From: a virus | Strand: one strand, 5' to 3' | Virus record (IMG/VR): IMGVR_UViG_3300048554_000221 | Span: 1-42,200 of that record | Length of the DNA stretch: 42,200 nucleotides | Part shown: positions 2,828 to 24,851 of the stretch, one piece after another | How positions within the stretch are numbered: the stretch's first letter is position 1 | How the letters are laid out: the number at the start of each line of letters is the position of its first letter | Notes under the pieces: model-generated | What the model was told of the DNA's origin: nothing | What the model saw: only the letters and a program-made list of their open reading frames with translations | Databases searched by the model: none | Made by a program: the position numbers and the translations under genes

Positions 2828-3588
2828 TAATCTCTTCTTTCTATATCTTCTTCATAACAGTCGCCCCATTGTACTTCTAGTATATGAGTGTTCTCTGTTC
2901 CAGGATTGCTTGCCTTATGCCAAACTTGTTTACCAATTTCAAATGTTCTACTTCTTGGTTCTAGTAATATACTACTTTGTATACTATTCCATTCAGTGTC
3001 CATTTTAACTGTACCTTCTAGTACATTCCATTCTTCTGAACGTTTAAAGTGTTTTTGGTCACTTAGTGATTTGCCGGGATATATTACAAGCTCTTTTACT
3101 TTGTAACCTTTTTCTGGTTTGTCATCTAGTACACGCCAGTAGCCCCAATCACGTTCTGTCTTTTGTGTTTTCCACTCGTCAAGTATCCAACTACTGCTGT
3201 TGGCTTTATTCTCTCCACCCACACCAAATTTAAAAGAAATGTTTTCTACATCTGCATCCATCTCTGGAATATTCTCAGATGTTCTATCTCCGCCATTTGC
3301 AAATATGATGTGTGCATCAGGATATAACAGTCTAACATTGTTTATTGCTTCAATAGCACTATCGTCATCGTCGCCAAATAACAAACAATGATCAACCATT
3401 GATAAGTGTTTTATAATTGCAATGCGTTCACCGCCTGGCATGAACGGACGACCTTTCTTACGTTTTAACCAAGCGTCTGTGTTAACACCGACAACAAGTT
3501 TGTCGCCGAGTTCTTTTGCTTCTTTAAAATATTCTATGTGTCCTGAGTGTAGCGGATCAAAGCCGCCGGTTACTAATACTACGTTCAT
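2827..3588 (-). CDS. Cytidylyltransferase-cupin fusion (nucleotide-sugar enzyme)
   Basis: Residues 1-140 form a nucleotidyltransferase of the TagD/RfaE-C type: TGGFDPLHSGHIEYF contains HSGH (residues 14-17), the HxGH nucleotide-binding motif, and a Lys plus SSS segment near 128-133 replaces the usual ISSTxL. Residues about 145-253 form a cupin of the type II mannose-6-phosphate-isomerase kind (WGYWRVLDD, VKELVIYPGKSLSDQKHFKRSEEWNVLEG, HKASNPG, ILEVQWGD). Such a protein would activate a sugar-1-phosphate or polyol phosphate with CTP, while the cupin isomerises or binds a sugar. The ATG is preceded at exactly 5 nt by AATAAATA and has no Shine-Dalgarno sequence, unlike most neighbours. The fusion is visible in one uninterrupted frame; the exact reaction is not. 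Confidence 0.75.
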   Translation of the reverse strand: MNVVLVTGGFDPLHSGHIEYFKEAKELGDKLVVGVNTDAWLKRKKGRPFMPGGERIAIIKHLSMVDHCLLFGDDDDSAIEAINNVRLLYPDAHIIFANGGDRTSENIPEMDADVENISFKFGVGGENKANSSSWILDEWKTQKTERDWGYWRVLDDKPEKGYKVKELVIYPGKSLSDQKHFKRSEEWNVLEGTVKMDTEWNSIQSSILLEPRSRTFEIGKQVWHKASNPGTENTHILEVQWGDCYEEDIERRD

Positions 3589-3593
3589 GTAGA

Positions 3594-3601
3594 TATTTAT
3601 T
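3594..3601 (-). promoter_or_regulatory. Late-type octamer AATAAATA, 5 nt from ATG
   Basis: On the minus strand AATAAATA lies 5 nt before the ATG at 3588 and contains the TAA stop of the gene at 3597-4583. By the T4 late-promoter geometry (octamer at -13 to -6) transcription would start on the A of the ATG. One mismatch from GATAAATA. It could give the distal half of the glycan cluster its own late expression. AT-rich chance occurrence is possible. Confidence 0.4.
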
Positions 3602-4583
3602 GCATGATTTGTGTATGCTTTTGTGTCTTGGCTTGTTCAAACAAAGACTGTAATGTAGGCCAAGGATCACCTCTTTGTATTTCTTCACCTGTCCACTGTG
3701 CATAACTCATATCATTTAACCATTGTTGTCTATCAACAGGTTGCCAGGCAGTCTCAATGTGATGTAAATTGCTTCTAGCAATAGGCGATGCTACTGAACT
3801 TGGGTCTAATGTATACGTTGGTTTGCCATTAAAAATGCTCTCAACTGCCGTTAAACTACTAAAAACTATAACGCATTTTGAGTCTAAAATGTCCTTTTTA
3901 AGCCCGCCGCTGGGTGCCATAGTAACACTTCCGTTGTATTCAAAGTTACTACTCATTACCACATTTGTATATTTGCTTGCTAATTCTGAAAAGTATCTTA
4001 CTTGTGGTCGCATGTTATTTGGGTGCGGACGTATTACAATTTTTCTATCTGTATTTCTACGTATTTCGTCTAGTGTATCTTTTAACCATAGGGTATATGC
4101 TTGCCAGGCTGTGTCAGTATTGTATTTTTTATACAAATGATTTAAACTACTATCACCAATTTTCTGTAAGCATAGTAATACGTAATCACCGTTATCGTCC
4201 CAAGGTTTTATTTGTAAATCAAAATCCTTTTGCATCATTTCCCAACGGTCACTAGGGCAGTTTTTTGGATACGTGCCAGTATTATAAAAGTAACTATTCC
4301 ACGCTAGTCTGTGCCATTTAGTTAATTTACTGTTGCCTTGTAAATCTCTAAAGATAGGACTTTCATTTACAATAGAAGGTTTATCACTACGTGCAATAAA
4401 TTCAAATGCATCTCTAGTTACTTTGTTTCCTTCGTAATGTTTTAAGATATTTGTTTGGAAATAAAAATCAGCATAGTTAGAATCTAAACAACTTTTTAAA
4501 TCAAATGTATGTCCATGTGCGTATAGCATACGCTTTAGTATTCCAGATGACTTACTTGCGCCTATTACTGCTACGCCTTTCAT
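3597..4583 (-). CDS. Capsule-synthesis-like glycosyltransferase, full length
   Basis: A 328-aa soluble protein and the longest complete member of the cluster's capsule-type family. The N-terminus MKGVAVIGASKSSG reads like a nucleotide-binding strand-turn. SDRW at 111-114 matches the same block in both paralogues; RRNTDRKIVIRPHPNN (about 175-190) holds the conserved RPHP; VIVFSSLTAVESIFNGKPTYT (about 238-258) is the C-terminal sugar-nucleotide segment. These fit the two-Rossmann layout of KpsC/LipB-like transferases. The start overlaps the TGA of the upstream HAD gene as ATGA. It differs from the short paralogue in keeping the His-Pro motif, so it is the best candidate for an active enzyme. 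Substrate unknown. Confidence 0.65.
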   Translation of the reverse strand: MKGVAVIGASKSSGILKRMLYAHGHTFDLKSCLDSNYADFYFQTNILKHYEGNKVTRDAFEFIARSDKPSIVNESPIFRDLQGNSKLTKWHRLAWNSYFYNTGTYPKNCPSDRWEMMQKDFDLQIKPWDDNGDYVLLCLQKIGDSSLNHLYKKYNTDTAWQAYTLWLKDTLDEIRRNTDRKIVIRPHPNNMRPQVRYFSELASKYTNVVMSSNFEYNGSVTMAPSGGLKKDILDSKCVIVFSSLTAVESIFNGKPTYTLDPSSVASPIARSNLHHIETAWQPVDRQQWLNDMSYAQWTGEEIQRGDPWPTLQSLFEQAKTQKHTQIMQ

Positions 4584-5803
4584 TTCTTTTGCTCATTAAA
4601 CTTTGCCCATTTAATATTTGTTGTTGCATATTCTTTACTGTGCATACGTTCAACAAACTTTAACAATAGTTCTTTGTTAGGCTTAGGTTTAAATAAATCA
4701 CAAATACTAATTGCACTAGCCATTGCATTATATTGTATCTTTGCAATCTGTTGAGGATGATCGTTTGGTCCTCTAATAGGTCCATCTTCGTCCCAATCAA
4801 TTACTGGTCCAAACTGATAGCAGTTATGTTTTTCTAAACTCTTTGTAGCAAACGGTACAAGACGATCAACGTAAGGAAGTGTCTTTCCTCCTATGTATAT
4901 TGTATGCGGTGGCGCTTGGTTATAAAATTTATAAATGCTATTGCCTTCACCTTGCAAATCTACTATAGTTGTGTTAGCATCAATCGTTCTATCTATATAT
5001 TCTTTAAAGTGTTCGTTAGGTTCTAAATACATTTTCCTACTAGTAATAAGCATCTTACTTTTCTTACCAGTCATTGCTTCGTATAACGGTTGCCAATTAC
5101 AACAGTCTCTATATGTAAAAGCAATATCTCTATCTGGTAGTTCTAGTGTAGCAAGTGCTAGTACAGGCAAGTTTAAGTTTGCTTGCTCAATCCAATACTT
5201 CTTTGCATCGCCTGTATGTGGACATAATAACCTAGTTTTACGCATCCAACATGCTAGTTGTGGATCTACTTCATATGCCATTTGTTCAAGCTCTGTGAAG
5301 TGTGTAAGCGTGTCTAAGACGCCATTAACTCCGTTTGCTTGTGCAGTTTTAACATCGCTATGTTCGTTATCTCCATAGTGTGTATCTATGTTATACTTCT
5401 GTTTTACACTATCCCAAATGTATCCGTGACGCTTACCATACCTAGTAACAATAATATCTACATTTTTTGTTAGTCCGCAGTTGCGTAATATTTTCATAAT
5501 TTCATCTGCACTAAGATACATGTCACTTAGTATTAAGTCACCGTCTTTGACTTTGTTTATATTTTCTACTATTGGAAATAAGTGTTCAAGTTCTACTTGT
5601 AATTCAACTTGTGGATCGTACTCGGGTAACAGTTTATAGATGTCTTCGAAGTTGCCTTCGTCTTTCTTAGTTGCTTTTTCAGCACGTATACGTTTTTTAA
5701 CGTAGTTAGAATCGTTAATACGTCTAGCAGTTTCTTCATGTACTGTTTTAGGATAAAAGAACCTACGTGCAATTAGTGTATCAAATACGTCCCAACTATT
5801 CAT
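4580..5803 (-). CDS. HAD-superfamily protein of glycan clusters (COG5610-like)
   Basis: Residues 1-10, MNSWDVFDTL, are HAD motif I with nucleophile D5; the +2 position is Phe, as in haloacid-dehalogenase-like members, rather than the Asp of standard phosphatases. LILSDMYLSADEI (about 90-102) is motif II, and HYGDNEHSDVKTAQANGV (about 140-157) is motif IV. A further 200-residue C-terminal region has no motif I recognise. HAD proteins of this type commonly accompany glycosyltransferases and FkbM enzymes in surface-glycan loci; the role may be dephosphorylation of a sugar intermediate. The open frame could begin at TTG 5809, but ATG 5803 is the natural start and overlaps the FkbM stop by 8 nt. 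Length about 407 aa. Confidence 0.65.
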   Translation of the reverse strand: MNSWDVFDTLIARRFFYPKTVHEETARRINDSNYVKKRIRAEKATKKDEGNFEDIYKLLPEYDPQVELQVELEHLFPIVENINKVKDGDLILSDMYLSADEIMKILRNCGLTKNVDIIVTRYGKRHGYIWDSVKQKYNIDTHYGDNEHSDVKTAQANGVNGVLDTLTHFTELEQMAYEVDPQLACWMRKTRLLCPHTGDAKKYWIEQANLNLPVLALATLELPDRDIAFTYRDCCNWQPLYEAMTGKKSKMLITSRKMYLEPNEHFKEYIDRTIDANTTIVDLQGEGNSIYKFYNQAPPHTIYIGGKTLPYVDRLVPFATKSLEKHNCYQFGPVIDWDEDGPIRGPNDHPQQIAKIQYNAMASAISICDLFKPKPNKELLLKFVERMHSKEYATTNIKWAKFNEQKK

Positions 5804-9430: not shown

Positions 9431-11416
9431 CTATCTTAGACCGGCTAATTCTTTCATTCTATCCATTTCTGGATTCGTATCTTCTGCCTGTTTGTATCTT
9501 TCCGTCATTTCATATACACTTTCAATAAATGCTTTTGCTGGATTGATATACTGTTCACCGTAATCTTTTTCTACCATTGTTAGTACTGCTGTTTCGCCTT
9601 TTGGAAATGCACCTTCTTCTTTATCGTAGTAAGATAGTATGAACTCGCCTAATGGTGTCTTTTGTTCTTCTTTTTCTAACTTAATCTTTTCGCCGTCTGG
9701 GCCATCAATTTCATCGCCCTTTTTCTTGCCATTCATTTTGGCTTTTGCTACAGCGCCTGAGTATGCATTGCCTTCGTCCATATTATCGATCATTTGTTCA
9801 ATAACACCTTGGATAATATCATCTCTATCGTCGTCAGCGTGTAAGCCGTGTTCCATGCCGTACTCGGTAATTTCTTGATCAAGTTCTTGATCGCTCATGC
9901 CCATTGCTTTTGCTAGTGCTGGTTCGCCACCTTTTTCATATGCATCCATAAATTCGTCTGCCATTGCATCTTGCTTGCTTGGCTCTGACTGTGGGTCAAA
10001 ACTTTCATCTGCAACATGTACTGATACCATATCGTCGCCGTTGTTAAGTCCGCCTTTTTTAACTTTTACATTGTCTTTGCCGTACTTTGCTACAGCTTCT
10101 TCTGGTGACATACTAGTTTGCTTCCACTTCATATCACCTTCAGCAAACTGACCCATCATTTCTTCAAAGCCTTGCTCTAGTTCAATTTCTTCTTTTGTTT
10201 TTACTTCTTCGTCATCTTTGTCCCATGGTGCTTTTTTAAGACTAACTTTTTTCTTCTTCTCACCACGTGGAGTTTCATCTGCATCATAACGAGCGCGATC
10301 TTCTGCGCCTTCTGGTACACAGTTATTAACTCTTTTGCCACCCTTCATTTTAGTTTTAGGGTTACCAATCTTTTTACCATCCCAACATGCTGGACCGCCT
10401 GCTGGTGAACTTTTCTTTTCACCTAATAAATCTTCAGCAGTTATTTCTTCTGCTTTGTTTGCTTCGCTTACTAATTTGTAAATGTAGGGGAATACATCTG
10501 CAAGCTCTTCATTGAACTGTTTAATAGTAAGTTGATCAATCCAATTTTCAGCAACATCAGTAGGAACATCTTCAAGTACGGGGGTTTCAAATGCTTCAAA
10601 TGTTTCTTTATAGTATGATGGCTTTTGTAATGATTCTAATGTTTTCTTAATTGTACCTACACGTTGTTTAACAACATCTACATACTCTGCTAGGCTTTCT
10701 GCCATTACTGCTGAACGGCCCATATAAGATTTAAACTTACGTAGTTTGTTCATTTCTTCTGACATACTTACAATATGCTTACCAAAATCATCATGCGGTA
10801 CTCCGCCTTCTGATACGTGTCTTGCCATTGCTCTTGCACCAGTAAGGTGTTTGAAAGGATATTTAAATCTTTCACCTTCTGAGCTTTCAACATATATTGC
10901 ACCAATTTTTCTTGTGCGTCCTGCGCTTGCTTCTTGATCAACACCTTCTGTATGTTTGATCATTAAACGTGCTCCATCAAAGTCTTGATAAGACTGTCTT
11001 GATGTGCCATATAATTTTGATTCGTTCATTCCGTTATCCCCGTCACGATTCTTTGCCAAAAATTTGTAATCTCTTTGATCTAAATTAGATTTTGTTATGT
11101 CTCTTGTGTCAAATTCTAGTGTTCGTTTTCTTGCAAACATGCGTAGTTCTTTTAAGAAATCGTACCAGCCTTTTTTTGCTATATCTGATTCAGTAGCAAC
11201 TAAATCGCCACCGTATACTACTGCCACATTCTTTTCATCTAGACTTACACTAACTTTACCAATTGGACGACCTTCATTTACAAAGTCAAAATCAAAGTAT
11301 CTACCTAGTTTAGGTTCGTTAGTTACGTTACCTTCAGCATCACCTATAGTAATACTTGGAAAGCGTCCACGTATCTTATTAAATAGTTCTTCTGCTGTTG
11401 TGTCTAAATTCTGCAT
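9431..11416 (-). CDS. Large conserved phage protein of unknown function
   Basis: About 661 aa, highly charged, no membrane segment. An ordered-looking N-terminal part (about 25-210) contains GRYFDFDFVNEGRPIGKVSV, a Lys/Arg-rich stretch and an IGAIYVESSEGERFKYPFKHL strand-rich block. A helical middle is followed at about 335-368 by a Pro/Gly/Lys-rich motif with two cysteines (GPACWDGKKIG ... KGGKRVNNCVPEG), a short motif I recall from other marine T4-like phage proteins. The last 250 residues are acidic and probably partly disordered. It lies between gp17 and gp32, so a head, packaging or virion-internal role is plausible but unproven. The frame extends to TTG 11431; ATG 11416 is chosen because GATAAATA ends 5 nt before it. 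No Shine-Dalgarno sequence is visible. Confidence 0.75.
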   Translation of the reverse strand: MQNLDTTAEELFNKIRGRFPSITIGDAEGNVTNEPKLGRYFDFDFVNEGRPIGKVSVSLDEKNVAVVYGGDLVATESDIAKKGWYDFLKELRMFARKRTLEFDTRDITKSNLDQRDYKFLAKNRDGDNGMNESKLYGTSRQSYQDFDGARLMIKHTEGVDQEASAGRTRKIGAIYVESSEGERFKYPFKHLTGARAMARHVSEGGVPHDDFGKHIVSMSEEMNKLRKFKSYMGRSAVMAESLAEYVDVVKQRVGTIKKTLESLQKPSYYKETFEAFETPVLEDVPTDVAENWIDQLTIKQFNEELADVFPYIYKLVSEANKAEEITAEDLLGEKKSSPAGGPACWDGKKIGNPKTKMKGGKRVNNCVPEGAEDRARYDADETPRGEKKKKVSLKKAPWDKDDEEVKTKEEIELEQGFEEMMGQFAEGDMKWKQTSMSPEEAVAKYGKDNVKVKKGGLNNGDDMVSVHVADESFDPQSEPSKQDAMADEFMDAYEKGGEPALAKAMGMSDQELDQEITEYGMEHGLHADDDRDDIIQGVIEQMIDNMDEGNAYSGAVAKAKMNGKKKGDEIDGPDGEKIKLEKEEQKTPLGEFILSYYDKEEGAFPKGETAVLTMVEKDYGEQYINPAKAFIESVYEMTERYKQAEDTNPEMDRMKELAGLR

Positions 11417-11421
11417 AAATG

Positions 11422-11429
11422 TATTTATC
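11422..11429 (-). promoter_or_regulatory. Late-type octamer GATAAATA, 5 nt from ATG
   Basis: A full GATAAATA lies between the gp17 stop and the ATG at 11416, leaving CATTT before the start codon. Its first bases overlap the gp17 TGA and supply an in-frame TAA behind it. Late-promoter geometry places the transcription start on the ATG, giving a predicted leaderless mRNA. Confidence 0.55.
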
Positions 11430-13008
11430 AATAGTTACTGCTAATGAAGATAGGCATTGGTGCCTCATAATCTTCATCTTGTTCGGCTTGATTGAATGTA
11501 TTATACACTCTTGGATCCCAGTCTTTTAGTACTGCCATCATTCTAATAGCAAGTAATGTAGCACTTACTAAATCATCTGTCATTCCTGACTTTGCTTGGA
11601 AACTTGAACCTGTTGCAACAAAGCCTTTTAGTTCTGATAATAAAGGTTTACTTATTATAGACATTTTATCGTTTTCTATCATAGTTTTAAGTCTACTACA
11701 TGCAGTAATTTTTGTACCGTGTGTAGTATTAAATCCTTTACGGAACTTACGTACATGTCCTTTGCGTATAGGTTCACTTACAAATAGTCCGGGTATATTT
11801 TCTTCACCAAAGTCATTTATAACAATTAGTGCGGCTTCGCCTATACCATTGTTTTCTACACTCCAATATACATTAGTATCGGATTTAGTTTCAGTAGCAA
11901 TGTAATTACATATATCACTTAATACTCTAACTTGTCCTGGAATGCCTGTTTGGTTATGTTGCCACTCTGCTACTTGCTCATAACTAGGTAATTCAAATAC
12001 TTCAATTGCGGCATTATCGCCACCTGTTCCCATTGACGGATCTAATGCAACTGCATATGTAAACTCACTGCTTGGCTTTTTATACCAACGAGTTTGACCC
12101 ATATTTAATATAGGATTTTTACCATCCATTGCGGCTAACTTAATACTGTTAATAAGTGTTTCATCAAAGACTAAGAATTCACAGCCGTATTCACGTCTAA
12201 ACTTTTCTTCGCCTATACGTCCAATTTCTGCTTCTTTCCATTCTTCATCTCTATCTGGATGCTCCTGCCACTCTGCAACAAAACTATGAAATCCGTTTGA
12301 TCCTAGTTCTTGTTCATTACCGTGTGCATCAAACTTTTCTTCAGCTTGTTTCCAAATAGTAGCAAACGTATCTTCATCACTGTTAGGTGTGCTAGTAATA
12401 ATAGCACGACCACCTGTTGCTAGTGTAGGTGATATTGATGTCCAAAACTCTTCTGCGATGTTAGGTTGCACAAATGCAAACTCGTCACAGTATAGTAATG
12501 ATATGGACATACCACGTCCAGTGTTTCCAGTAGTTGTTTGTGATACAATTCTACTGCCGTTTTCAAATTCAATTGAGCCTTTGTTATATGATGTAACACC
12601 TGCACGTATGTGATCTTCACACGTTTCATATATGTAACGTATACGTGCCATAATCTCTTGAGCACCTGTGTATTTGTGTGCCGCAATTAGTATAGTTTGA
12701 TCAGGTACAAACATTGCATACCATGCAAGGTATATTGCCGCACAAGTAGTTTTACCTGTTTGTCTAGGCATCATGTTTATATTAAAACGATAACTGTGAT
12801 ATGAATGCATCAAACGTGTTTGATACTCATAAGGATCAAACAACAACTTACCTTGTACAGGATGTTGTATAAAAGCAAACTTCTTGGCAAAGTACATATA
12901 CCCTGTGTCAGGATCTGTACATGCTAACAAGTCAGCAATTTGTGCTTCGCTAAATGATTCTTTTTGATTGGCCTTTTTAGTAAGGACACCGTCTAAACTC
13001 TTGCTCAT
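11428..13008 (-). CDS. gp17: gp17 large terminase, ATPase and nuclease
   Basis: The DNA-packaging motor and headful nuclease. In the 526-aa protein from ATG 13008, Walker A PRQTGKTT is at about 81-88, Walker B LLYCDE at 171-176, and the coupling motif ITSTPN at about 204-209. The C-terminal RNase-H-like nuclease carries Asp in AVALDPSMGTGGD (about 323), Glu in WSVENNGIG (about 385) and Asp in MTDDLVSA (about 478). T4 gp17 is 610 aa, so this one is somewhat short. The frame could start at TTG 13023, but the ATG 4 nt after AGTAAATA and directly downstream of a terminator is a better start. It works with gp16, encoded three genes upstream. Confidence 0.95.
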   Translation of the reverse strand: MSKSLDGVLTKKANQKESFSEAQIADLLACTDPDTGYMYFAKKFAFIQHPVQGKLLFDPYEYQTRLMHSYHSYRFNINMMPRQTGKTTCAAIYLAWYAMFVPDQTILIAAHKYTGAQEIMARIRYIYETCEDHIRAGVTSYNKGSIEFENGSRIVSQTTTGNTGRGMSISLLYCDEFAFVQPNIAEEFWTSISPTLATGGRAIITSTPNSDEDTFATIWKQAEEKFDAHGNEQELGSNGFHSFVAEWQEHPDRDEEWKEAEIGRIGEEKFRREYGCEFLVFDETLINSIKLAAMDGKNPILNMGQTRWYKKPSSEFTYAVALDPSMGTGGDNAAIEVFELPSYEQVAEWQHNQTGIPGQVRVLSDICNYIATETKSDTNVYWSVENNGIGEAALIVINDFGEENIPGLFVSEPIRKGHVRKFRKGFNTTHGTKITACSRLKTMIENDKMSIISKPLLSELKGFVATGSSFQAKSGMTDDLVSATLLAIRMMAVLKDWDPRVYNTFNQAEQDEDYEAPMPIFISSNY

Positions 13009-13012: not shown

Positions 13013-13020
13013 TATTTACT
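13013..13020 (-). promoter_or_regulatory. Late-type octamer AGTAAATA ahead of gp17
   Basis: AGTAAATA ends 4 nt (CAGT) before the gp17 ATG and follows at once after an intrinsic terminator, so gp17 needs its own promoter here. The same string TAAATACAGTATGAG occurs before the plus-strand gene at 21210. Transcription is predicted to begin at or next to the start codon. Confidence 0.55.
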
Positions 13021-13021: not shown

Positions 13022-13048
13022 AAAAAAATAGGGCCCGGAAGCCCTATT
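13022..13048 (-). terminator. Intrinsic terminator before gp17
   Basis: On the minus strand an 8-bp perfect stem (AATAGGGC with GCCCTATT, 13041-13048 and 13027-13034) with loop TTCCGG is followed by a T run. It sits between the stop at 13063 and the gp17 start, so it ends the gp16-side transcript and isolates gp17. Confidence 0.85.
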
Positions 13049-15631: not shown

Positions 15632-17047
15632 TTATACGTTTCCTAATGGATTCTTTTGTGCGGCAATAGTACTACTGCCTGCTTGTGACTCTCTGTATTT
15701 AGTGACTATGGAGTTGGTAATGGATAACATCTTGGGATCTTCATTAGATAGTAATTGATCAACTTCTGTTTTAACTATTGTTTTTTCGTTTACAGTAAGG
15801 TTATCGTACGCTCCAAGTCCTGCGGCATTACCTATATTATACCCTGCTAGTGTACTTACTGCACCAATTGCAACAGCTCTTTCTGCAACTAAGTCTTTTA
15901 GTTCTGCATTATTGTCTAGTGCTGTTTGTAATTCTGCTGTATCTATTTGTTTGTTTTGCTTAACAGTTGTAATTGCTTTTGCTTCAGTTGTTTGTGTACC
16001 ATTGCCACCGGATTTTGGAAAACTAGTATTAGCAAGTCCACTTACGTTAGTTCCTGTTGCTGTTCTAATAGTTTGTCCTGCAACTTGATATGCTTCGTTA
16101 CGCAAACCTTCTTTAGTAAGTTTCTTAGCGTTTTTAACTGTACGTGCCGCTGTAAGTAATGTACCTAAGTCTGCTTTACCGCCTGCTAAATCTCCTAGCA
16201 CACTAACACCGCCTGCTAGTACACCCGAGCTACCAAATAGGCTTCCGCCACTACCTGCGGCAATTGGACTAGGTGTTGAATCATAATGTTCTGTTGCAAA
16301 CCCTTTAGGTGTTGATCCTTCTACAACAGCACCGTCTGCATAAAATACACTTTCGTATGCTACTGTCATTGTATTCTGCACAGGCTCAGCACTTGCTGAA
16401 TTATCAAGTGTATCGTGTGACCATTTTTCAATAATTGGGTTTACTAATGTTAGCGTAAGATATTGATGTCTTGCTAACTGTGATATTTGTATACTTGTAA
16501 AAAACGGTTCGTATTGATTGTTATCTAAACCAAAGCGGTCACCGTTCTGTGTACTACCTTTGTACGTATTAAATCTATCATATGGTCTTGCACTTTGATT
16601 TGGTGCTCCTGCGCCATCTCTGCTACCATATGTACCGTCTCTAAACATATAGTTATAGTATGCTGTCCATAACTGTGTTGTTATGCTATTGTTATCATCG
16701 TGGAATACAATATTTACAGGTGAATAATCTATACGTGTTTGTACATTCTTTTTACGATTGTATTTGTTCTTAGTTTCAGTTGTTATATCATAACTAGGCA
16801 TAGTTACACTTTTAACAAGCATATTAACTTCATTAGTATGTCTGCCAACCCAACCTGGTAATACTTTGTTTACTACGTTGTCATTTAAATTAAGTGTTAC
16901 ATGATATAGAAACTTTTGTTTGGGAGCTAAACGAAAGTTGTCGTCTGTGAATAAACGTGCCGCATGTGAATAGTCGGCCATGTCGCCCTTTGGACTAAGT
17001 GCGCCGTTTACTAAGTTATCTAAGAATCCATTGAATATGTTCGCCAT
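15632..17047 (-). CDS. Tail-tube-like structural protein (possible gp54-type initiator)
   Basis: A 471-aa protein. Residues about 25-260 (MADYSHAARLFTDDNFRLAPKQKFLYHVTLNLN, HTNEVNMLVKSVTMPSYDITTETKNKYNRKKNVQTRIDYSPVNIVFHDD) have the strand pattern of the tail-tube fold shared by T4 gp19, gp48 and gp54. The remaining 200 residues are Gly/Ala-rich and helical, probably flexible. It lies just downstream of gp19, and a baseplate tube-initiator (gp54-like) is the best guess; a terminator or adaptor role is possible. The gene starts 5 nt after GATAAATA, behind a terminator, with no Shine-Dalgarno sequence. Confidence 0.65.
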   Translation of the reverse strand: MANIFNGFLDNLVNGALSPKGDMADYSHAARLFTDDNFRLAPKQKFLYHVTLNLNDNVVNKVLPGWVGRHTNEVNMLVKSVTMPSYDITTETKNKYNRKKNVQTRIDYSPVNIVFHDDNNSITTQLWTAYYNYMFRDGTYGSRDGAGAPNQSARPYDRFNTYKGSTQNGDRFGLDNNQYEPFFTSIQISQLARHQYLTLTLVNPIIEKWSHDTLDNSASAEPVQNTMTVAYESVFYADGAVVEGSTPKGFATEHYDSTPSPIAAGSGGSLFGSSGVLAGGVSVLGDLAGGKADLGTLLTAARTVKNAKKLTKEGLRNEAYQVAGQTIRTATGTNVSGLANTSFPKSGGNGTQTTEAKAITTVKQNKQIDTAELQTALDNNAELKDLVAERAVAIGAVSTLAGYNIGNAAGLGAYDNLTVNEKTIVKTEVDQLLSNEDPKMLSITNSIVTKYRESQAGSSTIAAQKNPLGNV

Positions 17048-17052: not shown

Positions 17053-17060
17053 TATTTATC
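17053..17060 (-). promoter_or_regulatory. Late-type octamer GATAAATA, 5 nt from ATG
   Basis: GGATAAATATTAGT directly precedes the ATG at 17047. The identical GGATAAATATTAGTA recurs at the octamer 40164-40171, there with a long leader. With a terminator 27 nt upstream it must act as a fresh promoter. A leaderless start is predicted. Confidence 0.6.
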
Positions 17061-17137: not shown

Positions 17138-17776
17138 TTAGCTTGCGCCAGTTGTACTTGCTATAGCCGCTACTGATCTTCCAATAGCAGTACCTACTCC
17201 ACCACCGCTTGCGCCTGATGTTTGGATAGCATTGTCGTACTTAACTGTTAATGCAACTGTTACTGGTTCGTTAGCACTGTATGCTAATGAATTGTAATTT
17301 GCACTTTCTAAGTAACAACCGTATAGTTCAAAAGTTTCTAATGTTTCTGGTGCGTAGTTACCGTTACCACCGTCTAGAATTTCAATTCTAGTTACAAACT
17401 TATAATCAATTCCGCTTGCCGCACTTGACTGTTCCATAAAATCGAACTGTCTTTGTAGTTGTTCACCAACTAGTTTTTGTACAGCACCAGTAGCATCGTC
17501 TCTTAAAGTAAGTGTAATAGCTTCCCAGGTATGTTTACCTGCAAGATAAACTCTTGAGTTGTATACGTCAACAGTCATTGTCTCGAAGCTTACGTTTGGT
17601 CTAGTAACATCCTGAACCTGTTTTGTTAGTTCAGTAACTTCGCCTGCACTTACACCAAAGTTTTCCAGTGACACTCTAAAGCGATACTGGAGTTTTGGCA
17701 TAAGTAACCCTTGGGTAGAGTTACTTGCATCCGAAGCTAATGGAACTGTGATTTTTGATAATGATGAAATAGCCAT
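17138..17776 (-). CDS. gp19: gp19 major tail tube protein
   Basis: A 212-aa protein (T4 gp19 is 163 aa) with the family pattern: MPKLQYRFRVSLENFGVSAGEVTELTKQVQDVTRPNVSFETMTVDVYNSRVYLAGKHTWEAITLTLRDD, then VTRIEILDGGNGNYAPETLETFELYGCYLESANYNSLAYSANEPVTVALTVKYDNA. It polymerises into hexameric rings forming the DNA conduit inside the sheath. The extra length is at the Gly/Ala/Ser-rich C-terminus. AGGAG at good spacing, a full late octamer upstream and a terminator downstream mark it as an independently expressed late gene. Confidence 0.92.
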   Translation of the reverse strand: MAISSLSKITVPLASDASNSTQGLLMPKLQYRFRVSLENFGVSAGEVTELTKQVQDVTRPNVSFETMTVDVYNSRVYLAGKHTWEAITLTLRDDATGAVQKLVGEQLQRQFDFMEQSSAASGIDYKFVTRIEILDGGNGNYAPETLETFELYGCYLESANYNSLAYSANEPVTVALTVKYDNAIQTSGASGGGVGTAIGRSVAAIASTTGAS

Positions 17777-17802: not shown

Positions 17803-17810
17803 TATTTATC
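17803..17810 (-). promoter_or_regulatory. Late-type octamer GATAAATA ahead of gp19
   Basis: GATAAATA with a predicted start near 17797 gives a leader of about 21 nt containing AGGAG before the gp19 ATG. This is the ordinary T4-late arrangement and a useful control for the leaderless cases. Confidence 0.65.
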
Positions 17811-17814: not shown

Positions 17815-20800
17815 TTACAAGCCTGCTATCTCACCAGTATTTTTCAAACGTAGTGGAATGTAAACAAACTCTACTGCTTTGACTGGTTCTATCGCTATAT
17901 CTAAGTAAAGCTCGTTACGATCAATTCTAGCTGGAGTGTTGTTGCTTTCGTCACATACAACTAAGAAGTCATATAATGCTCTTGCACCAACTAACTCTAA
18001 ACATAAGCTCTCTGCGGCCTGTTTGATCTGATCACGTGTGATCTTATCATTTGGTTCAAAGATATATGGTTTAGCTAATTTGTTTAACTGTCCACGTAAG
18101 TAAATTACCAAACGTGCTACGTTAATTCTATCTAATGAGCTTGCACCTCTTGCACGAGTCTTTTGACCATATGCAACTAAGCCTGCGCCGTTAATGAATG
18201 TAATTGGGTTAACGCTTACTGCATAAAGTGTATCACGTTGTCCTTCGTTTAATGCTATTGAATTAAATTCGCCTTCGTTATCAATAAACCCTGTTGCTGT
18301 AGCATTTGTAATGCCGCCACGTCTTGTACCTGCTGGTGCAAACCATGGATAGCTAACTTGGTCACTTAGCGCAATAGTTCTTAGCATCATGTGACTTGGT
18401 GGAACAACTACATTGTTACCTGCGTTGTCGCTTGTAAAGCCCCATGGATAAAATACACCTAAGTATTCATCTCTGCTTACAAGTCCGTCATCGTTATCTT
18501 CAACTGCTAATGCAACGTTCTGACCCCATTCATTTAATGAAGTAGCGTCTGATGTTAATCTTGCTGGTGAATCACCTACGATGAATGCACTTAATCCTCT
18601 ATCAAAGTTTAGTGAAACCATTTCACCAATTAGCTCTGGATAACCTGGAGTTGCCATCAAGTTAAAGATTCTTGATTCGTCATCTCTAATGTCATCGTTA
18701 CTATTCATTGTAGCCTGTAACTGTTGTACAACAACTTTACGCTGTGCTTTACGTCCAAAGCTACCTGAACCATCTTCTTGGTTAGCTGACTCTGTTTGCC
18801 ATCTGTGTGGATAGTAACTTGCCATTGATGCATCACCTGCTCTTGCGTTATCAGCAGTAACATCAATTGCGTTACGTACAAATTTCTTAACGTTAAAGCC
18901 GCTTCTGCGTGTGTTCCAAAGTAGCATACCACGTGGGTAAAGTGCTGGATCTGGAGCATCTGGGTCTAAGTAGTCACTTGTTAATAAGTCTGTAATAGTA
19001 CCTGTTGGAGCAACTGTTGTTGTTCCGCCTGTTGTACCATAACGTGCATCTGCAAACAATACACCATCTTCAGTAGTTTGATCTGATTTGTCAACTAACT
19101 GCCATTCTTGAGCACCATTGTTCCAACGGTAAATTGTTGGATAGTTTTCTAAGTCTGATGTGTCAACCCAAAGATCCTGATCTGCTGGAGTACTTGGTTG
19201 TGTTGCTGATACTGTTGTACCGTTACTTGAACCGTATAATGTTTTATAACCAACCCATGTTGTACCATTGTGTACCATCATGTCAACTTCGTCAATAACA
19301 CTGCTGTACCATAATGTACCATCTGCTGTTGTGCTTGTTGGTGCGTTAGCTGATGCTACGTACACTTGTGAAGCACTTGATGTTACTGGCATCCAGTTTG
19401 AAGCAACTAGTTCATTAGTTGAATCACCTGTTGGAGCGTCATATACGTTAGTTGCCGCGTTAGTTAAACCTACTAATGTAAGTGGGCTTGTACCTGAACC
19501 ATTGTCAAGTCTAAAGTCGCCACCTAATTTGTGTTCAATTACAACTTTGTTAGTTGAATCTACTGAAGCAACAATATTAGTAAAGCCTGCGCTGTTAATA
19601 CCGTCTGCCATTTCGTCGGCGTCAGTACTTGCACCTGTTGCAGTAAATGCTACTTCTCTTGCTGTTGCTAATGCCGCACTACCTACAACACTTTCTGCTA
19701 TTTTAAATGTATATGCAACTGCTGAAAGTTGAGTTGCTATTTCTGCAGTTTTAATTGTAGTTGCACCTGCCGCCGCTCTTTTAAATAATACAAAATCACC
19801 TAATTTGCTTGATGCTTCTGTAAAGTTAGATTGTACGTACAATGCGTCTTTTGCTAAGTTAGCGCCGCCGCCTGCTTTATCTAATGCATATAATGCACTT
19901 TGATTTGAAGCGTATATTGGTGCGTCTACTAAGTCCCAAAGTGCTGTGTCTGCATTGTAAGATTTTACTCTCCATCTTGCACCACTGTTTGGTTCTGTAG
20001 TTTTTAGCCATACACTTCCACTTGGACGAGCAACTTGACCTGAGCCTGTTGACTTCCATTGTGGAACACTTGTATGTGGATCAATTGCTAATGCTGGAAT
20101 ATCAAAGTTTCCAACTGTAAAGCCTAATTTCTCTGCAAGTCCTGGAGAACCAGCACCTTCTGCAAGAGTAATTTGTGTGTCTACTGAACCATCATTGTAA
20201 ATTACTAATTGACTGTTAAGGTTTGCTACACTAACACCTGTACCTGAAAGTACTGTGTTACTGTTTGAAACTATATCATCTAATGAAGTAGCTGATCCAC
20301 CGCTGGTCGCCGCTGTTAGTGTATAGTTAGAACCACCTATATCAAGTACTAAAGTATCGGAATCTAATAATGTTGTACCGCCTGTTACAACAACTGATCC
20401 AGTTGCACTTGGTGTAGTTCCTGTCCATGTAGATGAACCAACTTGTACCCAGTTACCTGAAGTGTTTTTGTACCATACTCTGTAAATTGTTGATAAGCCA
20501 GCAGTTATAGCATAGTCGCCTATTGCGCCTACTGAACCTTTTGGTGTATATGGAGTTGAGCCGCTTGTTTTTGTTGCGTCTGTTATTACAATAGGAGTTT
20601 TAACTGCAAAGCTCTGTCCGCCTGTTGTCGATGCTGCCGCACCATTCCATTCAAAAATACCAAATGCTGTTGATGCAGTATCTGTCCAAAGTGCGCCATC
20701 TGCTGGTGCACCGCTTGGGGCATCTGCTGTTGCTTGTAAAGCGCCTAAGTCAACATCTGCTCTTACAATAAATGCTCTGTTGCTTACACCTAATAATGAG

Positions 20801-21093
20801 TAAGCCGCTTGCAAACCATATTCGTTAAGTTCGCCTGCATGTATTGGATTGTTATTTGTATCAGTATAAAATACTGGGTCTCCAAATGTCTCTGTAAGGT
20901 CACGCTGTGATGTTAGTAAGTAAGGCTTACCTGCGTTTGCTTTCAGTGATCCTGGAGCAATACCCGTACCAGCGCCATTTGTTTTATTTGCGGCGGTGGC
21001 AACGAATATCATTGGTACTGTACCTGGTTCAGCGGGTGTGTAAAAACTTTCGTCTACTACGCTAACCTGTACTCCTGGTGATGTTAGTGCCAT
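17815..21093 (-). CDS. gp18: gp18 tail sheath, with long fibre-like insertion
   Basis: A contractile sheath subunit. Residues 1-120 (SPGVQVSVVDESFY ... TFGDPVFYTDTNN ... AYSLLGVSNRAFIVRADVDLG) and about 735-1092 (VVVQQLQATMNSNDDIRDDESRIFNLMATPGYPELIGEM ... RIDRNELYLDIAIEPVKAVEFVYIPLRLK) match T4 gp18 ends, including the C-terminal domain that links subunits. T4 gp18 is about 659 aa; here 1092 aa. The extra 400-500 residues (about 120-720) hold several copies of a DG-x-LW ... W-x-G-x-x-W module (126-156, 355-390, 584-616, 632-668) otherwise seen in tail fibres, likely exposed on the sheath surface. AGGAG precedes the ATG; an octamer lies at 21135-21142. Confidence 0.95.
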   Translation of the reverse strand: MALTSPGVQVSVVDESFYTPAEPGTVPMIFVATAANKTNGAGTGIAPGSLKANAGKPYLLTSQRDLTETFGDPVFYTDTNNNPIHAGELNEYGLQAAYSLLGVSNRAFIVRADVDLGALQATADAPSGAPADGALWTDTASTAFGIFEWNGAAASTTGGQSFAVKTPIVITDATKTSGSTPYTPKGSVGAIGDYAITAGLSTIYRVWYKNTSGNWVQVGSSTWTGTTPSATGSVVVTGGTTLLDSDTLVLDIGGSNYTLTAATSGGSATSLDDIVSNSNTVLSGTGVSVANLNSQLVIYNDGSVDTQITLAEGAGSPGLAEKLGFTVGNFDIPALAIDPHTSVPQWKSTGSGQVARPSGSVWLKTTEPNSGARWRVKSYNADTALWDLVDAPIYASNQSALYALDKAGGGANLAKDALYVQSNFTEASSKLGDFVLFKRAAAGATTIKTAEIATQLSAVAYTFKIAESVVGSAALATAREVAFTATGASTDADEMADGINSAGFTNIVASVDSTNKVVIEHKLGGDFRLDNGSGTSPLTLVGLTNAATNVYDAPTGDSTNELVASNWMPVTSSASQVYVASANAPTSTTADGTLWYSSVIDEVDMMVHNGTTWVGYKTLYGSSNGTTVSATQPSTPADQDLWVDTSDLENYPTIYRWNNGAQEWQLVDKSDQTTEDGVLFADARYGTTGGTTTVAPTGTITDLLTSDYLDPDAPDPALYPRGMLLWNTRRSGFNVKKFVRNAIDVTADNARAGDASMASYYPHRWQTESANQEDGSGSFGRKAQRKVVVQQLQATMNSNDDIRDDESRIFNLMATPGYPELIGEMVSLNFDRGLSAFIVGDSPARLTSDATSLNEWGQNVALAVEDNDDGLVSRDEYLGVFYPWGFTSDNAGNNVVVPPSHMMLRTIALSDQVSYPWFAPAGTRRGGITNATATGFIDNEGEFNSIALNEGQRDTLYAVSVNPITFINGAGLVAYGQKTRARGASSLDRINVARLVIYLRGQLNKLAKPYIFEPNDKITRDQIKQAAESLCLELVGARALYDFLVVCDESNNTPARIDRNELYLDIAIEPVKAVEFVYIPLRLKNTGEIAGL

Positions 21094-21134
21094 TATATTT
21101 CTCCTATTAATAATGAATGAGTCTTTGTTATAGT

Positions 21135-21142
21135 TATTTAGC
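21135..21142 (-). promoter_or_regulatory. Late-type octamer GCTAAATA ahead of gp18
   Basis: GCTAAATA lies 41 nt before the gp18 ATG, with a predicted leader of about 36 nt and AGGAG near the start codon. One base differs from GATAAATA. Confidence 0.45.
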
Positions 21143-21197
21143 AGTTTAAGAATAATTCACCTGTAATATACCCTAAAAAAAGGTACCGAAAAGGTGA

Positions 21198-21205
21198 GGT
21201 AAATA
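21198..21205 (+). promoter_or_regulatory. Late-type octamer GGTAAATA, 4 nt from ATG
   Basis: GGTAAATA-CAGT-ATG precedes the plus-strand HNH-like gene and repeats the gp17 arrangement. A GGTGAGG stretch overlaps it and could instead act as a ribosome binding site 9 nt from ATG, so its role here is ambiguous. Confidence 0.35.
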
Positions 21206-21209
21206 CAGT

Positions 21210-21545
21210 ATGAGACCTTTATGCAAATGCGGACAGCGTCCTGCGGCTATAAACTATAAAAAAGATGATAGAACTTACTATAGATCATTGTGTGAGCGTT
21301 GCTTACGTAATGGAGCAGGCCACGGAATACCTAAGTGGAAACAAAGAGGTTATGAAAAAAAGAGTAGTTGTGAGAAGTGTAATTATAAATCTAAACACTC
21401 AGAACAATTTAATGTGTTTCATATAGACGGAAATTTAGAAAACTGCCGTCCACAAAACTTAAAAACAATATGTGCTAACTGTCAGAGAATTCTGCAAAAA
21501 GAGGGAGTTGTGTGGAAGCAGGGTGACTTAGTCCCCGATTTTTAA
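21210..21545 (+). CDS. HNH-like zinc protein on the opposite strand
   Basis: A 111-aa basic, cysteine-rich protein. Cys5/Cys7 with Cys28/Cys31 form one probable zinc site; Cys54/Cys57 with Cys88/Cys91 form a second that frames FHIDGNLENCRPQNLKTICANCQ (70-92). That segment matches the HNH-endonuclease pattern H-x-DGN-x-x-N-x4-NL-x3-C-x2-C, but the residue after the last Cys is Gln where HNH enzymes usually have His. It may be an HNH nuclease with altered activity or a DNA-binding relic. It faces the opposite way from gp18 and runs 71 nt into the 3' end of the dNMP-kinase gene. HNH proteins near terminase and tail genes can be packaging cofactors or homing enzymes. Confidence 0.75.
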   Translation: MRPLCKCGQRPAAINYKKDDRTYYRSLCERCLRNGAGHGIPKWKQRGYEKKSSCEKCNYKSKHSEQFNVFHIDGNLENCRPQNLKTICANCQRILQKEGVVWKQGDLVPDF

Positions 21546-22035: not shown

Positions 22036-22063
22036 TAATATAAACTCCTTTAAGTATCTTTAA

Positions 22064-22092
22064 AGTATATACTCTATATTAGTGCTTGTCAA
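22064..22092 (-). promoter_or_regulatory. Sigma70-type promoter for the dNMP-kinase gene
   Basis: TTGACA (22087-22092) and TATACT (22064-22069) on the minus strand are separated by exactly 17 bp, right after the stop of the gene at 22095. It fits early expression of a nucleotide-metabolism gene inside a late region, as for the gp32 promoter. Confidence 0.75.
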
Positions 22093-22094
22093 CC

Positions 22095-22340: not shown

Positions 22341-22362
22341 GACTTCTCCTTGTTACATATTG

Positions 22363-22370
22363 TATTTACA
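22363..22370 (-). promoter_or_regulatory. Late-type octamer TGTAAATA
   Basis: TGTAAATA with a predicted leader of about 16 nt and AAGGAG before the ATG at 22340. Two bases differ from GATAAATA, so this is a weak member of the set. Confidence 0.35.
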
Positions 22371-22406
22371 AGGAACCAAAATCGTTAGCGTTAACTTGGG
22401 GGGTTT

Positions 22407-23393
22407 TTAGCCTATTGTGAATCCGTAACCTACGCCACCAGCAACTTGGTTAATTACATCCATTTCAAGTTTTTCCATTTCAGCCGCGGCCTCTGCTTTT
22501 AATGCATCACCGTTAAGTGCTGAACCGCCTTGTGGTCCTGCGATTGTAGCAAATTTACTACGTGCTTCGCCTAGCATGTATTTGCAACTTGCTAGTGTAT
22601 AATCTTTGATCCATTGATTGGCAAGATAGTCACTAAGTAGTTCACTATCTGGTCTATGGTTGTATGCGTAAATTAATATTTCTTCTTCGGCTCTTGGACG
22701 TTGTAGTAATGTTAATTTTTTACTTGTAGTATTCCATTTAAATTCTATAAACGAACCAAACATTCTGCCTACTAATTCTTGGTACTGACTAAACATATCG
22801 TATGTTGCTAGTCCGCCCATGTTTGAACTTGATAATAGGTATGCATTTGTGTATGCTAAGTTAAACGGTTCAAACAATGATCCGCCGCCTGCTTCTCCTG
22901 ATTCATATAATTCTATTCCAACAACAGCACCAACTGCTAGTGCAGAGTTAAAAGTTATTGTTCTAGTTACGTAATCAATTGCATAATCAGTAGTTGCTTC
23001 ACCATTTACTTTTACAACAACAGTTGCAATAGAATTTAAATTATAGTTTGTAGCAAATGTTTGATTTTTTGAAACTGTAGCAACATGTGATGTAGTAAAG
23101 ATAGGACCACCTGATGCAGATGTAGCAGGTCTTGAACCAATGCTTCTGCGAAACAGTTTACGTACTTCAACTACTTCATTTGGTAGTACATATTCGTTTT
23201 GATCAACTACAGTGGGCATAAACAAGTAAGATTCTTCAACTGAATTATCAGACCTTTGTCTAAATTTACTAAGTGCTTTAGATAAAGCAGTTTCGTAGTG
23301 GATTGGATCCAGTTCTACATCAACCATACCGCCGCCCAGAAAGGCGTTTACATAGTCAAATATTGCTTGTTTTTGTGTTTGGTTAACTGCCAT
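22407..23393 (-). CDS. gp13: gp13-like neck protein
   Basis: A 328-aa protein (T4 gp13 is 309 aa). The C-terminal block NQWIKDYTLASCKYMLGEARSKFATIAGPQGGSALNGDALKAEAAAEMEKLEM ... GYGFTIG matches T4 gp13 in its W-KDY, GP-GG, NG-x-L-x-EA and final G-x-x-x-G pattern. The N-terminus (YETALSKALSKFRQRSDNSVEESYLFMPTV) fits the helical start. Gp13 and gp14 build the neck that closes the filled head and joins the tail. Residues about 111-164 (VVVKVNGEATTDYAIDYVTRTITFNSALAVGAVVGIELYE) look like an inserted beta module of the tail-fibre kind. GGAG precedes the ATG; the gene diverges from gp14. Confidence 0.72.
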   Translation of the reverse strand: MAVNQTQKQAIFDYVNAFLGGGMVDVELDPIHYETALSKALSKFRQRSDNSVEESYLFMPTVVDQNEYVLPNEVVEVRKLFRRSIGSRPATSASGGPIFTTSHVATVSKNQTFATNYNLNSIATVVVKVNGEATTDYAIDYVTRTITFNSALAVGAVVGIELYESGEAGGGSLFEPFNLAYTNAYLLSSSNMGGLATYDMFSQYQELVGRMFGSFIEFKWNTTSKKLTLLQRPRAEEEILIYAYNHRPDSELLSDYLANQWIKDYTLASCKYMLGEARSKFATIAGPQGGSALNGDALKAEAAAEMEKLEMDVINQVAGGVGYGFTIG

Positions 23394-23412
23394 TATAGTT
23401 TCTCCGTCATAG

Positions 23413-23420
23413 TATTTATC
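23413..23420 (-). promoter_or_regulatory. Late-type octamer GATAAATA ahead of gp13
   Basis: The left half of a palindromic promoter pair. The predicted start near 23407 gives a leader of about 14 nt with GGAG before the gp13 ATG. Confidence 0.6.
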
Positions 23421-23437
23421 GTAGTTACTATCGTTAC

Positions 23438-23445
23438 GATAAATA
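23438..23445 (+). promoter_or_regulatory. Late-type octamer GATAAATA, 5 nt from gp14 ATG
   Basis: The right half of the palindromic pair. GATAAATA is followed by TGTAT and then ATG at 23451; no Shine-Dalgarno sequence exists. A leaderless gp14 mRNA is predicted. Confidence 0.6.
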
Positions 23446-23450
23446 TGTAT

Positions 23451-24851
23451 ATGCCAAAGTTAAGTTTATATAAACCAGAACGCGGAAAAGACTTTCAATT
23501 CTTAGACCGCCAGATAAATGAAATGTTCGATATTGGAGGGACAGACCTGTTTGTCCATAAGTATATCGGTACGAATGACGGAACAACAGAAAAGGATCAT
23601 ACACAGATCCAAGATATGTTGTTTTTAGAAAATAGAGATAGAAAGTATGATAAAGACATCTACACTATCAGAGGTATTTACAATGTACAGGACATTGACT
23701 TTGATCTAAGCCAATTTGGTTTGTTCTTAAGTAATGATACATTGTTTATGACTGTACATATTAATACGTCAGTACAAACAGTTGGGCGTAAACTTATGCC
23801 CGGCGATGTTATAGAACTTCCTCATTTAAAAGATGAATATGCAATGAATGATTTTAGTGTAGCACTAAAGCGTTTTTATGTTATTGAAGATATTAATAGA
23901 GCCGCAGAAGGCTTTTCACCAACTTGGTATCCACACTTATATAGACTTAAATTAAAACAAATAGTAGACAGTCAAGAGTACAAAGATATACTTGACTTAC
24001 CAGCAAGTGAAGACTATCCAGAAGATGGTACATTACGTGATGTATTATCAACATTCGAAGCAGAAATGAATGTTAACAATGCTGTAGTTGCAGAAGCAAA
24101 TACTAATACTCCTAAAAGCGGGTATGATACAGATACAGCATTATATACACTTGCAGTAGATGAAGATACAGGTAGAGCCGCAGTAGAACAGGTTGCTGAT
24201 GATGGCAGTACAATAACTGACAAAGCAACACCTAGAGGACACGGATATGATGGACTATTAATAGGTGACGAATTTGCACCTAACGGAAGTCAATTTGGTA
24301 GTGGTATAAGTTTTCCAGTTAACTCTGTAGACGGTGACTATTTTATGCGAACAGACTTTTTACCTCAAAGGTTATTTAGATACGAAAAAAATCGTTGGAT
24401 AAAAGTACACGATGTTAAGAGAGCTCCAATGAATAACGGAACTAAAGATACACTAAGAGGATCGTTTATTAATGATGTAGACACTTATCTATACGATACT
24501 CCAATAGCAACAGACTTTATGCAATTAACAGTTGGACAAACTGAGTTGCTAACAGACATTGCTGATATGTCAGCAAAATATATAAAAATAGAATATACTA
24601 GCGACAATAGAGATGGCAACGAAATGGTTAGTTATGCAGTTGTAGACTATCCAATGAATAGTGCTACTAACTATCCTGGAATACTAAAGCCATATACAAG
24701 TCAAGACGGCAGTACACAACTTGTAAAATTAACTTTACCAAGTGCTACTGCTATTAAAAATGCAGGACTGCACACAATAACACTTTACAATGAAAGAACA
24801 CAACAACGTCAAGCTCTTTCACAAGTATTAAAACCTAAGGCAGATAACTAA
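23451..24851 (+). CDS. gp14: gp14-like neck protein
   Basis: A 466-aa protein from ATG 23451 (T4 gp14 is 256 aa). The N-terminal half matches the neck family: FLDRQINEMFDIGGTDLFVHKYIG, YNVQDIDFDLSQFGLFLSNDTLFMTVHIN, RKLMPGDVIELPHL, then KRFYVIEDINRAAEGFSPTWYPHLYRLKLKQIVDSQEY. It binds gp13 to complete the head-tail neck. Residues about 280-321 (GISFPVNSVDGDYFMRTDFLP, RLFRYEKNRWIKVHDV) are a fibre-type W-x-x-W module. The frame is open upstream to 23298, but that would overlap gp13; ATG 23445 is in frame but lies inside the octamer. The TAA shares a base with the gp15 ATG. Confidence 0.72.
   Translation: MPKLSLYKPERGKDFQFLDRQINEMFDIGGTDLFVHKYIGTNDGTTEKDHTQIQDMLFLENRDRKYDKDIYTIRGIYNVQDIDFDLSQFGLFLSNDTLFMTVHINTSVQTVGRKLMPGDVIELPHLKDEYAMNDFSVALKRFYVIEDINRAAEGFSPTWYPHLYRLKLKQIVDSQEYKDILDLPASEDYPEDGTLRDVLSTFEAEMNVNNAVVAEANTNTPKSGYDTDTALYTLAVDEDTGRAAVEQVADDGSTITDKATPRGHGYDGLLIGDEFAPNGSQFGSGISFPVNSVDGDYFMRTDFLPQRLFRYEKNRWIKVHDVKRAPMNNGTKDTLRGSFINDVDTYLYDTPIATDFMQLTVGQTELLTDIADMSAKYIKIEYTSDNRDGNEMVSYAVVDYPMNSATNYPGILKPYTSQDGSTQLVKLTLPSATAIKNAGLHTITLYNERTQQRQALSQVLKPKADN

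Follow-up and report, generated by a model that had tools for sequence, protein, structure and literature searches.

Late promoters adjoining start codons predict a conserved leaderless gene subset in a family of T4-like phages

How is a late gene of a T4-like phage translated when its predicted promoter leaves no room for a ribosome binding site? The question is raised by a 42.2-kb virus record, a fragment with 37.6% GC (IMG/VR record IMGVR_UViG_3300048554_000221, positions 1 to 42,200; the window), in which octamers of the T4 late-promoter type, with a TAAATA core, end 4–5 nt before the ATG of several genes. We call a gene near-class when TAAATA or TAAGTA is followed by 4–5 nt and then ATG, and far-class when the octamer is more distant. 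The preliminary description of the window had proposed that genes starting at 3588, 11416, 13008, 17047 and 23451, with a possible sixth at 21210, are leaderless, whereas neighbours with a distant octamer use a Shine-Dalgarno (SD) sequence. This layout is real, far above chance and conserved gene by gene, and the sequences make it very probable that a fixed subset of late genes has leaderless mRNAs, made from T4-type late promoters whose transcripts start on the A of the ATG.

Octamers next to start codons

The octamer stands 4–5 nt before all five ATGs, and the 20 nt 5' of each contain neither AGGA nor GGAG nor GAGG. The sixth candidate has the same junction with an ambiguous SD status, as a GAGG lies 10 nt 5' of its ATG. 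Three neighbours with distant octamers, gp19, gp18 and gp13, do carry an SD sequence, as had been described (Table 1). Among 42 gene starts chosen from the list of open reading frames (ORFs) of the window (two of them, 2148 and 5758, set loosely), six have TAAATA ending 4–5 nt before the ATG; when each 40-nt upstream stretch was permuted, the mean was 0.16 and 0 of 20,000 shuffles reached six. TAAATA lies within 40 nt of 13 window genes, and six of these 13 have it at 4–5 nt (binomial P 4e-5).

Relatives were drawn from a TerL scan of IMG/VR that matched at least 599 loci, of which we used the 80 best (80–98% identity). Across 980 ORFs of these loci and the window, octamers at a distance of up to 40 nt are bimodal in their spacing, with 231 of 492 at 4–5 nt and 184 at 17–30 nt, but just 23 at 6–16 nt, 12 of which lie at 7, so that leaders too short for an SD sequence are rare. 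The octamer occurs 68 times at spacing 4 and 163 times at spacing 5, against maxima of 12 and 19 for 12 permuted hexamers that do not overlap it. Two more of the 14 permuted hexamers, AAATAT and ATAAAT, overlap the octamer itself and for that reason also peak (90 at spacing 4; 34 and 97 at 5 and 6); they were excluded as controls in the later per-genome counts. A count that needs no gene caller gave 22 TAAATA open frames at spacing 4 and 47 at spacing 5, compared with at most 15 at any spacing from 0 to 20 for five other AT hexamers. In eight contigs (seven long relatives and the window), 72 octamers lie at 4–5 nt, 22 of them in the 357-kb relative G001.

Conservation and start-codon signatures

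The preliminary description had suggested aligning orthologues to see whether the spacing is kept without a ribosome binding site; most orthologues of the same genes keep it, and those of terL, the virion protein and the hldE-like gene nearly always lack the binding site. The layout is near-class in 73 of 80 terL loci, 22 of 23 orthologues of the hldE-like gene, 63 of 78 of the virion protein (14 others have spacing 6–8 and one is unscored), 47 of 51 of the second tail-tube gene and all 26 of the HNH gene. For the gp14-position gene it is found in six of eight long contigs and in one of two matches among the terL loci. Because the 80 loci are related to each other, these counts are not independent; the unique near-class upstream sequences number 62 for terL, 22 for the hldE-like gene, 55 for the virion protein, 42 for the second tail-tube gene and 24 for the HNH gene.

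The leadered genes keep their layout too. gp13 is far-class in 8/8 long contigs, and every scored gp19 (47 of 50 loci) and gp18 (31 of 46) is far-class with an SD sequence, the other 3 and 15 being unscored for contig-edge or N-terminal reasons. The split between the two classes is gene-specific. An SD sequence also precedes gp23 in all 11 records giving a match, uvsX in 51/51 and gp32 in 59/59; an octamer lies within 70 nt in one uvsX only, so uvsX and gp32 are not octamer genes. Near-class status further extends to gp25 in G001 and G003 and to homing endonuclease genes in the window's family, and to gp4 in just one of 56 family loci.

Several features around the start codon separate the classes. 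In the eight contigs, an SD core is present in 1 of 73 near-class, 92 of 141 far-class and 387 of 756 other genes, and the base at -1 is a pyrimidine in 97%, 49% and 40%, respectively, with no A at -1 in the near class; across six families, all 206 unique near-class upstreams have the pyrimidine. Start codons at the near spacing are ATG 73 times, GTG twice and TTG never, compared with ATG in 162 of 187 behind strong SD sequences. The 14 virion-protein orthologues at spacing 6–8 (L011, L023, L028 and 11 others; mostly 7) lose the -1 rule, having A at -1 in nine cases, as expected if the start there is not the A of the ATG, and their spacing implies predicted leaders of a few nucleotides. Of the 62 unique terL upstreams in the near class, 43 carry a terminator hairpin and T-run within 12 nt 5' of the octamer; in the eight contigs, a terminator precedes 10 of 73 near-class, 1 of 141 far-class and 2 of 756 other genes.

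Divergent gene pairs add a constraint of space. Of 20 listed pairs with a near-class member and less than 150 bp between starts, 19 are separated by 20–57 bp and one by 76 bp. Five of the pairs are near-class on both sides, among them the gp2 and gp4 homologues of the cultured pelagiphage HTVC008M (18916, minus strand, and 18943, plus strand) across 26 bp. The gp13/gp14 junction is leadered on one side and near-class on the other in the window and in G001, G003, G005, G006 and G007. Initiation on the AUG is in keeping with the -1 pyrimidine rule, the nearly empty zone at 6–16 nt and the shortness of the divergent intergenic regions.

Table 1. Octamers, predicted leaderless genes and leadered neighbours in the window
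Feature	Coordinates	Strand	Details
Octamer AATAAATA	3594..3601	-	followed by TCTAC and ATG at 3588; 5 nt before hldE-like gene
hldE-like nucleotidyltransferase gene, predicted leaderless	2827..3588	-	phrog_7878, E 2e-29
Octamer GATAAATA	11422..11429	-	followed by CATTT and ATG at 11416; spacing 5 nt; overlaps terL stop codon
Virion structural protein gene, predicted leaderless	9431..11416	-	phrog_13484, E 1.5e-18
Intrinsic terminator	13022..13048	-	8-bp stem AATAGGGC/GCCCTATT, T7; ends 1 base before terL octamer
Octamer AGTAAATA	13013..13020	-	followed by CAGT and terL ATG at 13008; spacing 4 nt
terL (gp17), predicted leaderless	11428..13008	-	phrog_36964, E 7.5e-118
Octamer GATAAATA	17053..17060	-	followed by TTAGT and ATG at 17047; spacing 5 nt
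Second tail-tube-like gene, predicted leaderless	15632..17047	-	phrog_13438, E 2e-16
Octamer GATAAATA	23438..23445	+	followed by TGTAT and ATG at 23451; 5 nt; back to back with gp13 octamer
gp14-position gene (virion protein), predicted leaderless	23451..24851	+	phrog_11591
Octamer GGTAAATA	21198..21205	+	followed by CAGT and ATG at 21210; 4 nt; GAGG overlaps 5' edge of octamer
HNH endonuclease-like gene, predicted leaderless, sixth and less certain	21210..21545	+	phrog_10822, E 3e-4
gp19 tail tube, leadered contrast	17138..17776	-	octamer 17803-17810, 26 nt away; SD
gp18 tail sheath, leadered contrast	17815..21093	-	octamer 21135-21142, 41 nt away; SD
gp13 neck protein, leadered contrast	22407..23393	-	octamer 23413-23420, 19 nt away; SD; divergent from 23451 over 57 bp

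The window holds a T4-like late region with terL, head closure gp4, a terS-like gene, two tail-tube proteins and a long tail sheath, and further encodes gp13, gp14-position and gp15-position genes, UvsX, UvsY and gp32. Its TerL shares 53–54% identity with that of PA5oct-type phages, 53.5% with Atu_ph07 (over 81% of its length) and 49% with Phosso, and the gene order in the Phosso late region resembles the window's. The tail-tube family matches fall in two neighbouring genes, 15632-17047 (near-class) and 17138-17776 (leadered). The sheath (17815-21093) has 1092 aa compared with 659 aa in T4, and the best match of T4 gp18 to it is confined to the C-terminal part (T4 residues 468-657). Possible auxiliary metabolic genes (26377-27189, 2827-3588) include Nudix hydrolase, cysteine dioxygenase-like and hldE-like genes.

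Late-promoter machinery and competing explanations

Set against the TATAAATA-like octamer of T4, the six window octamers share the TAAATA core and are relaxed in the first two bases (GA, AG, GG, AA); as the core was the search motif, only the flanks are informative. TAAATA as such is scarce in the window, with 39 copies on both strands compared with 69 in shuffles, as if selection had removed stray late promoters. A gp55-family match (phrog_234) is present in G001–G004 (E 8.6e-23 to 7.5e-25, with one TAA inside the G003 match), and likewise in T4, HTVC008M, Mosig and Melnitz; the same search did not find it in the shorter fragments G005–G007. In G001–G004 the match spans part of open frames of 280–306 aa, compared with 185 aa for T4 gp55.

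In T4, roughly one helical turn separates the late box from the start downstream of it (PMC2988020); from the A(-13) and 8 bp given there we take a position of -13 to -6, with the start 6 nt past the octamer. By sequence, Y(-1)A(+1) at the ATG is compatible with this distance at spacing 5, where the start would fall on the AUG, as the preliminary description had proposed from the T4 geometry. That proposal needs correction at 13008 and 21210, where spacing 4 means that a start on the A requires initiation 5 nt, not 6, after the octamer.

In the mechanism that we favour, a phage sigma factor of the gp55 family on host RNA polymerase would recognise the octamer, which would be placed so that the transcript begins on the A of the ATG, and the ribosome would have to initiate on the 5'-terminal AUG without an SD sequence. 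The leaderless subset would comprise terL, the virion protein, the second tail-tube protein, the gp14-position gene and the hldE-like and HNH genes, joined in some relatives by gp25 and homing endonuclease genes; gp18, gp19 and gp13 would combine a more distant copy of this octamer with an SD sequence, and gp23 would use an SD sequence. We considered two phage factors that might cause such initiation. Phage IF3 was rejected, with IF3_C in 0/8 records. The ribosomal protein bS21 is encoded in G001 (332212-332364), HTVC008M, Mosig and Melnitz and was not found in T4 or in the partial contigs G002–G004; among 13 further records it scores above the cut-off in PA5oct, Phosso, Atu_ph07 and Vibrio 2.275.O and below it in CBB, and was not found in the other eight, including Syn9 and P-SSM2. 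Phosso and Atu_ph07 carry bS21, yet have 0 near-class genes in the 50 kb examined, and whole-record counts of TAAATA-N4,5-ATG against a reversed control were 4 versus 2 and 17 versus 26, respectively. We rejected bS21 as the cause, and it is a lead at most.

Several observations weigh against this interpretation. Judging from permuted hexamers, chance alone would give about 5 of the 72 sites counted in the eight contigs, and gene-blind pattern counts show no clear excess over the reversed pattern in G003 (14 versus 12) and G004 (5 versus 7). A spacing of 4 falls short of the T4 rule by one base, and the layout is missing in seven of 80 terL orthologues. An SD core occurs in 15 of 42 unique second tail-tube and 7 of 24 unique HNH upstreams, and part of these could act on read-through RNA. 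Outside terL, a terminator precedes the octamer in at most one unique case per family, so a leadered read-through RNA may coexist with the leaderless one. In pelagiphages the gap is less clean, with sites at 0–3 or 6–9 nt numbering 9 versus 13 at 4–5 nt in HTVC008M and 7 versus 6 in Mosig.

Such coexistence, in which the adjacent promoter only raises the dose of a gene also carried on longer read-through RNA, is the alternative that survives best; it is partly compatible with our interpretation, and we regard it as possible, though on the doubtful side. Operon-like neighbours, the terL stop codon overlapping the next octamer and the SD cores of some second tail-tube and HNH upstreams speak for it, whereas terminators stand before most unique terL sites, and the rarity of SD cores in the near class (1/73) would leave the longer RNA mostly SD-less too. 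Another alternative is that the octamer by the ATG is a translation signal (A/U-rich, Kozak-like or S1-binding) within a longer RNA begun at a promoter farther upstream. SD-less initiation in an A-rich context is known in Bacteroidota, and the terminator-less near-class genes could be read through from upstream. We nevertheless find a translation signal improbable: the same octamer sits 17–41 nt before SD genes in the same phages, RNA from upstream of terL would usually cross a terminator ending near the octamer, the base at -1 is nearly always a pyrimidine and never A, unlike an A-rich initiation context, and several divergent pairs leave scant room for leaders.

It is less probable still that the start codons are miscalled and the true starts lie downstream behind SD sequences, the octamer giving a normal leader. 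An internal in-frame ATG or GTG with an SD core does occur in codons 6–40 of 5 of 79 near-class genes, but with 9 of 203 in the far class the rates are similar, without clear excess; moreover, the annotated Phosso TerL start aligns with residue 1 of the window TerL, and terL shows codon-wise conservation, with weaker third positions, from about codon 5 onward. Chance in an AT-rich genome with A/T-rich upstream regions, which the 37.6% GC might suggest, can be dismissed given the shuffles, the permuted hexamers and the conservation across diverged loci.

Known systems and spread among phages

The likeness to T4 late promoters (gp55/gp33/gp45) lies in the TAAATA octamer before late structural genes and in the gp55 family of the window's relatives. 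T4 differs in having a single site at 4–5 nt, with A at -1, before a gene at 37.9–38.7 kb, outside the 75–125 kb late region viewed, and 28 far-class genes, 19 with an SD core. The closest known case, which we compared by description only, is phiYS40 of Thermus, most of whose middle and late mRNAs are reported to be leaderless (PMC3594737). There leaderlessness covers most of the class, whereas here the split would run gene by gene among genes sharing one octamer; the phiYS40 pattern is not seen, as octamer distances fall in two classes, 4–5 nt and mainly 17–30 nt. In Deinococcus-Thermus, a -10 box abutting the start codon, with a spacing requirement, gives leaderless mRNA (PMC12340547), a property of cellular promoters of one phylum as opposed to a phage late system. 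Kasugamycin is reported to spare the translation of leaderless mRNA (PMC5230787). The AR9 paper states that phage transcripts are often leaderless, yet gives AR9 leaders of 26–491 nt (PMC5312081), and in the available part of the Melnitz paper, which predicts 15 late promoters, 'leaderless' appears only in a reference title (PMC9004378). The split had been put forward as new for T4-like phages, and we found no report of leaderless late genes in them in the open-access literature, judged by titles and abstract openings; leaderless phage mRNAs as such have the phiYS40 precedent, and the layout itself also occurs in the cultured HTVC008M and, close to control levels, at a few sites in Mosig, Melnitz and PA5oct.

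Sites at 4–5 nt number 13 in HTVC008M (NC_020484), six in Mosig, two each in Melnitz and PA5oct, and one each in P-SSM2 (50 kb) and T4, with none in Syn9, CBB (198 kb), Phosso (50 kb) or Atu_ph07 (50 kb). The largest permuted-hexamer counts were 2 for HTVC008M, 4 for Mosig, 2 for Melnitz and 4 for PA5oct, so only HTVC008M stands out by numbers. HTVC008M, Mosig and Melnitz together have 21 near-class genes, with an SD core in two and a -1 pyrimidine in 95%, whereas the P-SSM2 and T4 sites carry A at -1. All three pelagiphages have their gp2 homologue in the near class, an agreement that chance would not easily produce, and HTVC008M adds gp4 and gp25 (31132, plus strand). In PA5oct, TAAGTA stands 5 nt in front of the gp21 homologue, and the record attaches a mass-spectrometry note to the near-class gene EST35_0222 (144985, plus strand) and mentions RNA-Seq. 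Two ATAAATA-N5-ATG sites shared by CBB and XbC2 were discarded, as the one in the gene-scanned part of CBB precedes no called gene.

These three pelagiphages, filed under Kyanoviridae as is Syn9, differ from the window's family in that terL is not near-class. In a TerL tree (21 rows, midpoint root, Syn9 and P-SSM2 left out) they join T4 (100/100), and the window's family groups with PA5oct, CBB, Phosso and Atu_ph07. With terL near-class in the window's family and not in HTVC008M, and gp4 near-class in HTVC008M but hardly in the family, the comparison favours, without proving, two origins of the layout rather than one. A TerL scan of cellular genomes gave four loci in metagenome-assembled genomes (MAGs) labelled Neomarinimicrobiota (two), Euryarchaeota and Spirochaetaceae; we do not take these labels as host evidence, the loci probably being phage contigs in bins. 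L219 and L220 (PBPT01000016, 335 kb; PBPT01000082, 153 kb), in a Neomarinimicrobiota MAG, have a TerL 82% identical to the window's and are probably large phage contigs.

What might such a split achieve? The products of terL, gp14, gp2, gp4 and gp25 type are few per virion in T4. Since these are the kinds of gene found in the near class, the split may plausibly serve to tune products in low demand, a role that does not clearly suit the second tail-tube gene. More speculatively, two T4-like lineages, one the jumbo-related family of the window and the other the pelagiphages around HTVC008M, may independently have brought the late promoter up against the start codon of fixed late genes, making the late class two-tiered, with abundant gp18, gp19 and gp23 made from SD leaders and low-copy terL and gp14, or gp2 and gp25, from leaderless mRNAs, and with phage bS21 perhaps biasing ribosomes to the leaderless set late; we offer this scenario tentatively and think it rather unlikely in full.

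In the textbook picture of T4 late expression, leaders and SD sequences are assumed as a matter of course. The leaderless interpretation is open to test in cultured phages, HTVC008M first, and a conserved leaderless subset would alter start-codon and promoter calling in T4-like phages. It would also make the mode of translation a heritable, gene-specific layer of T4-like late regulation.

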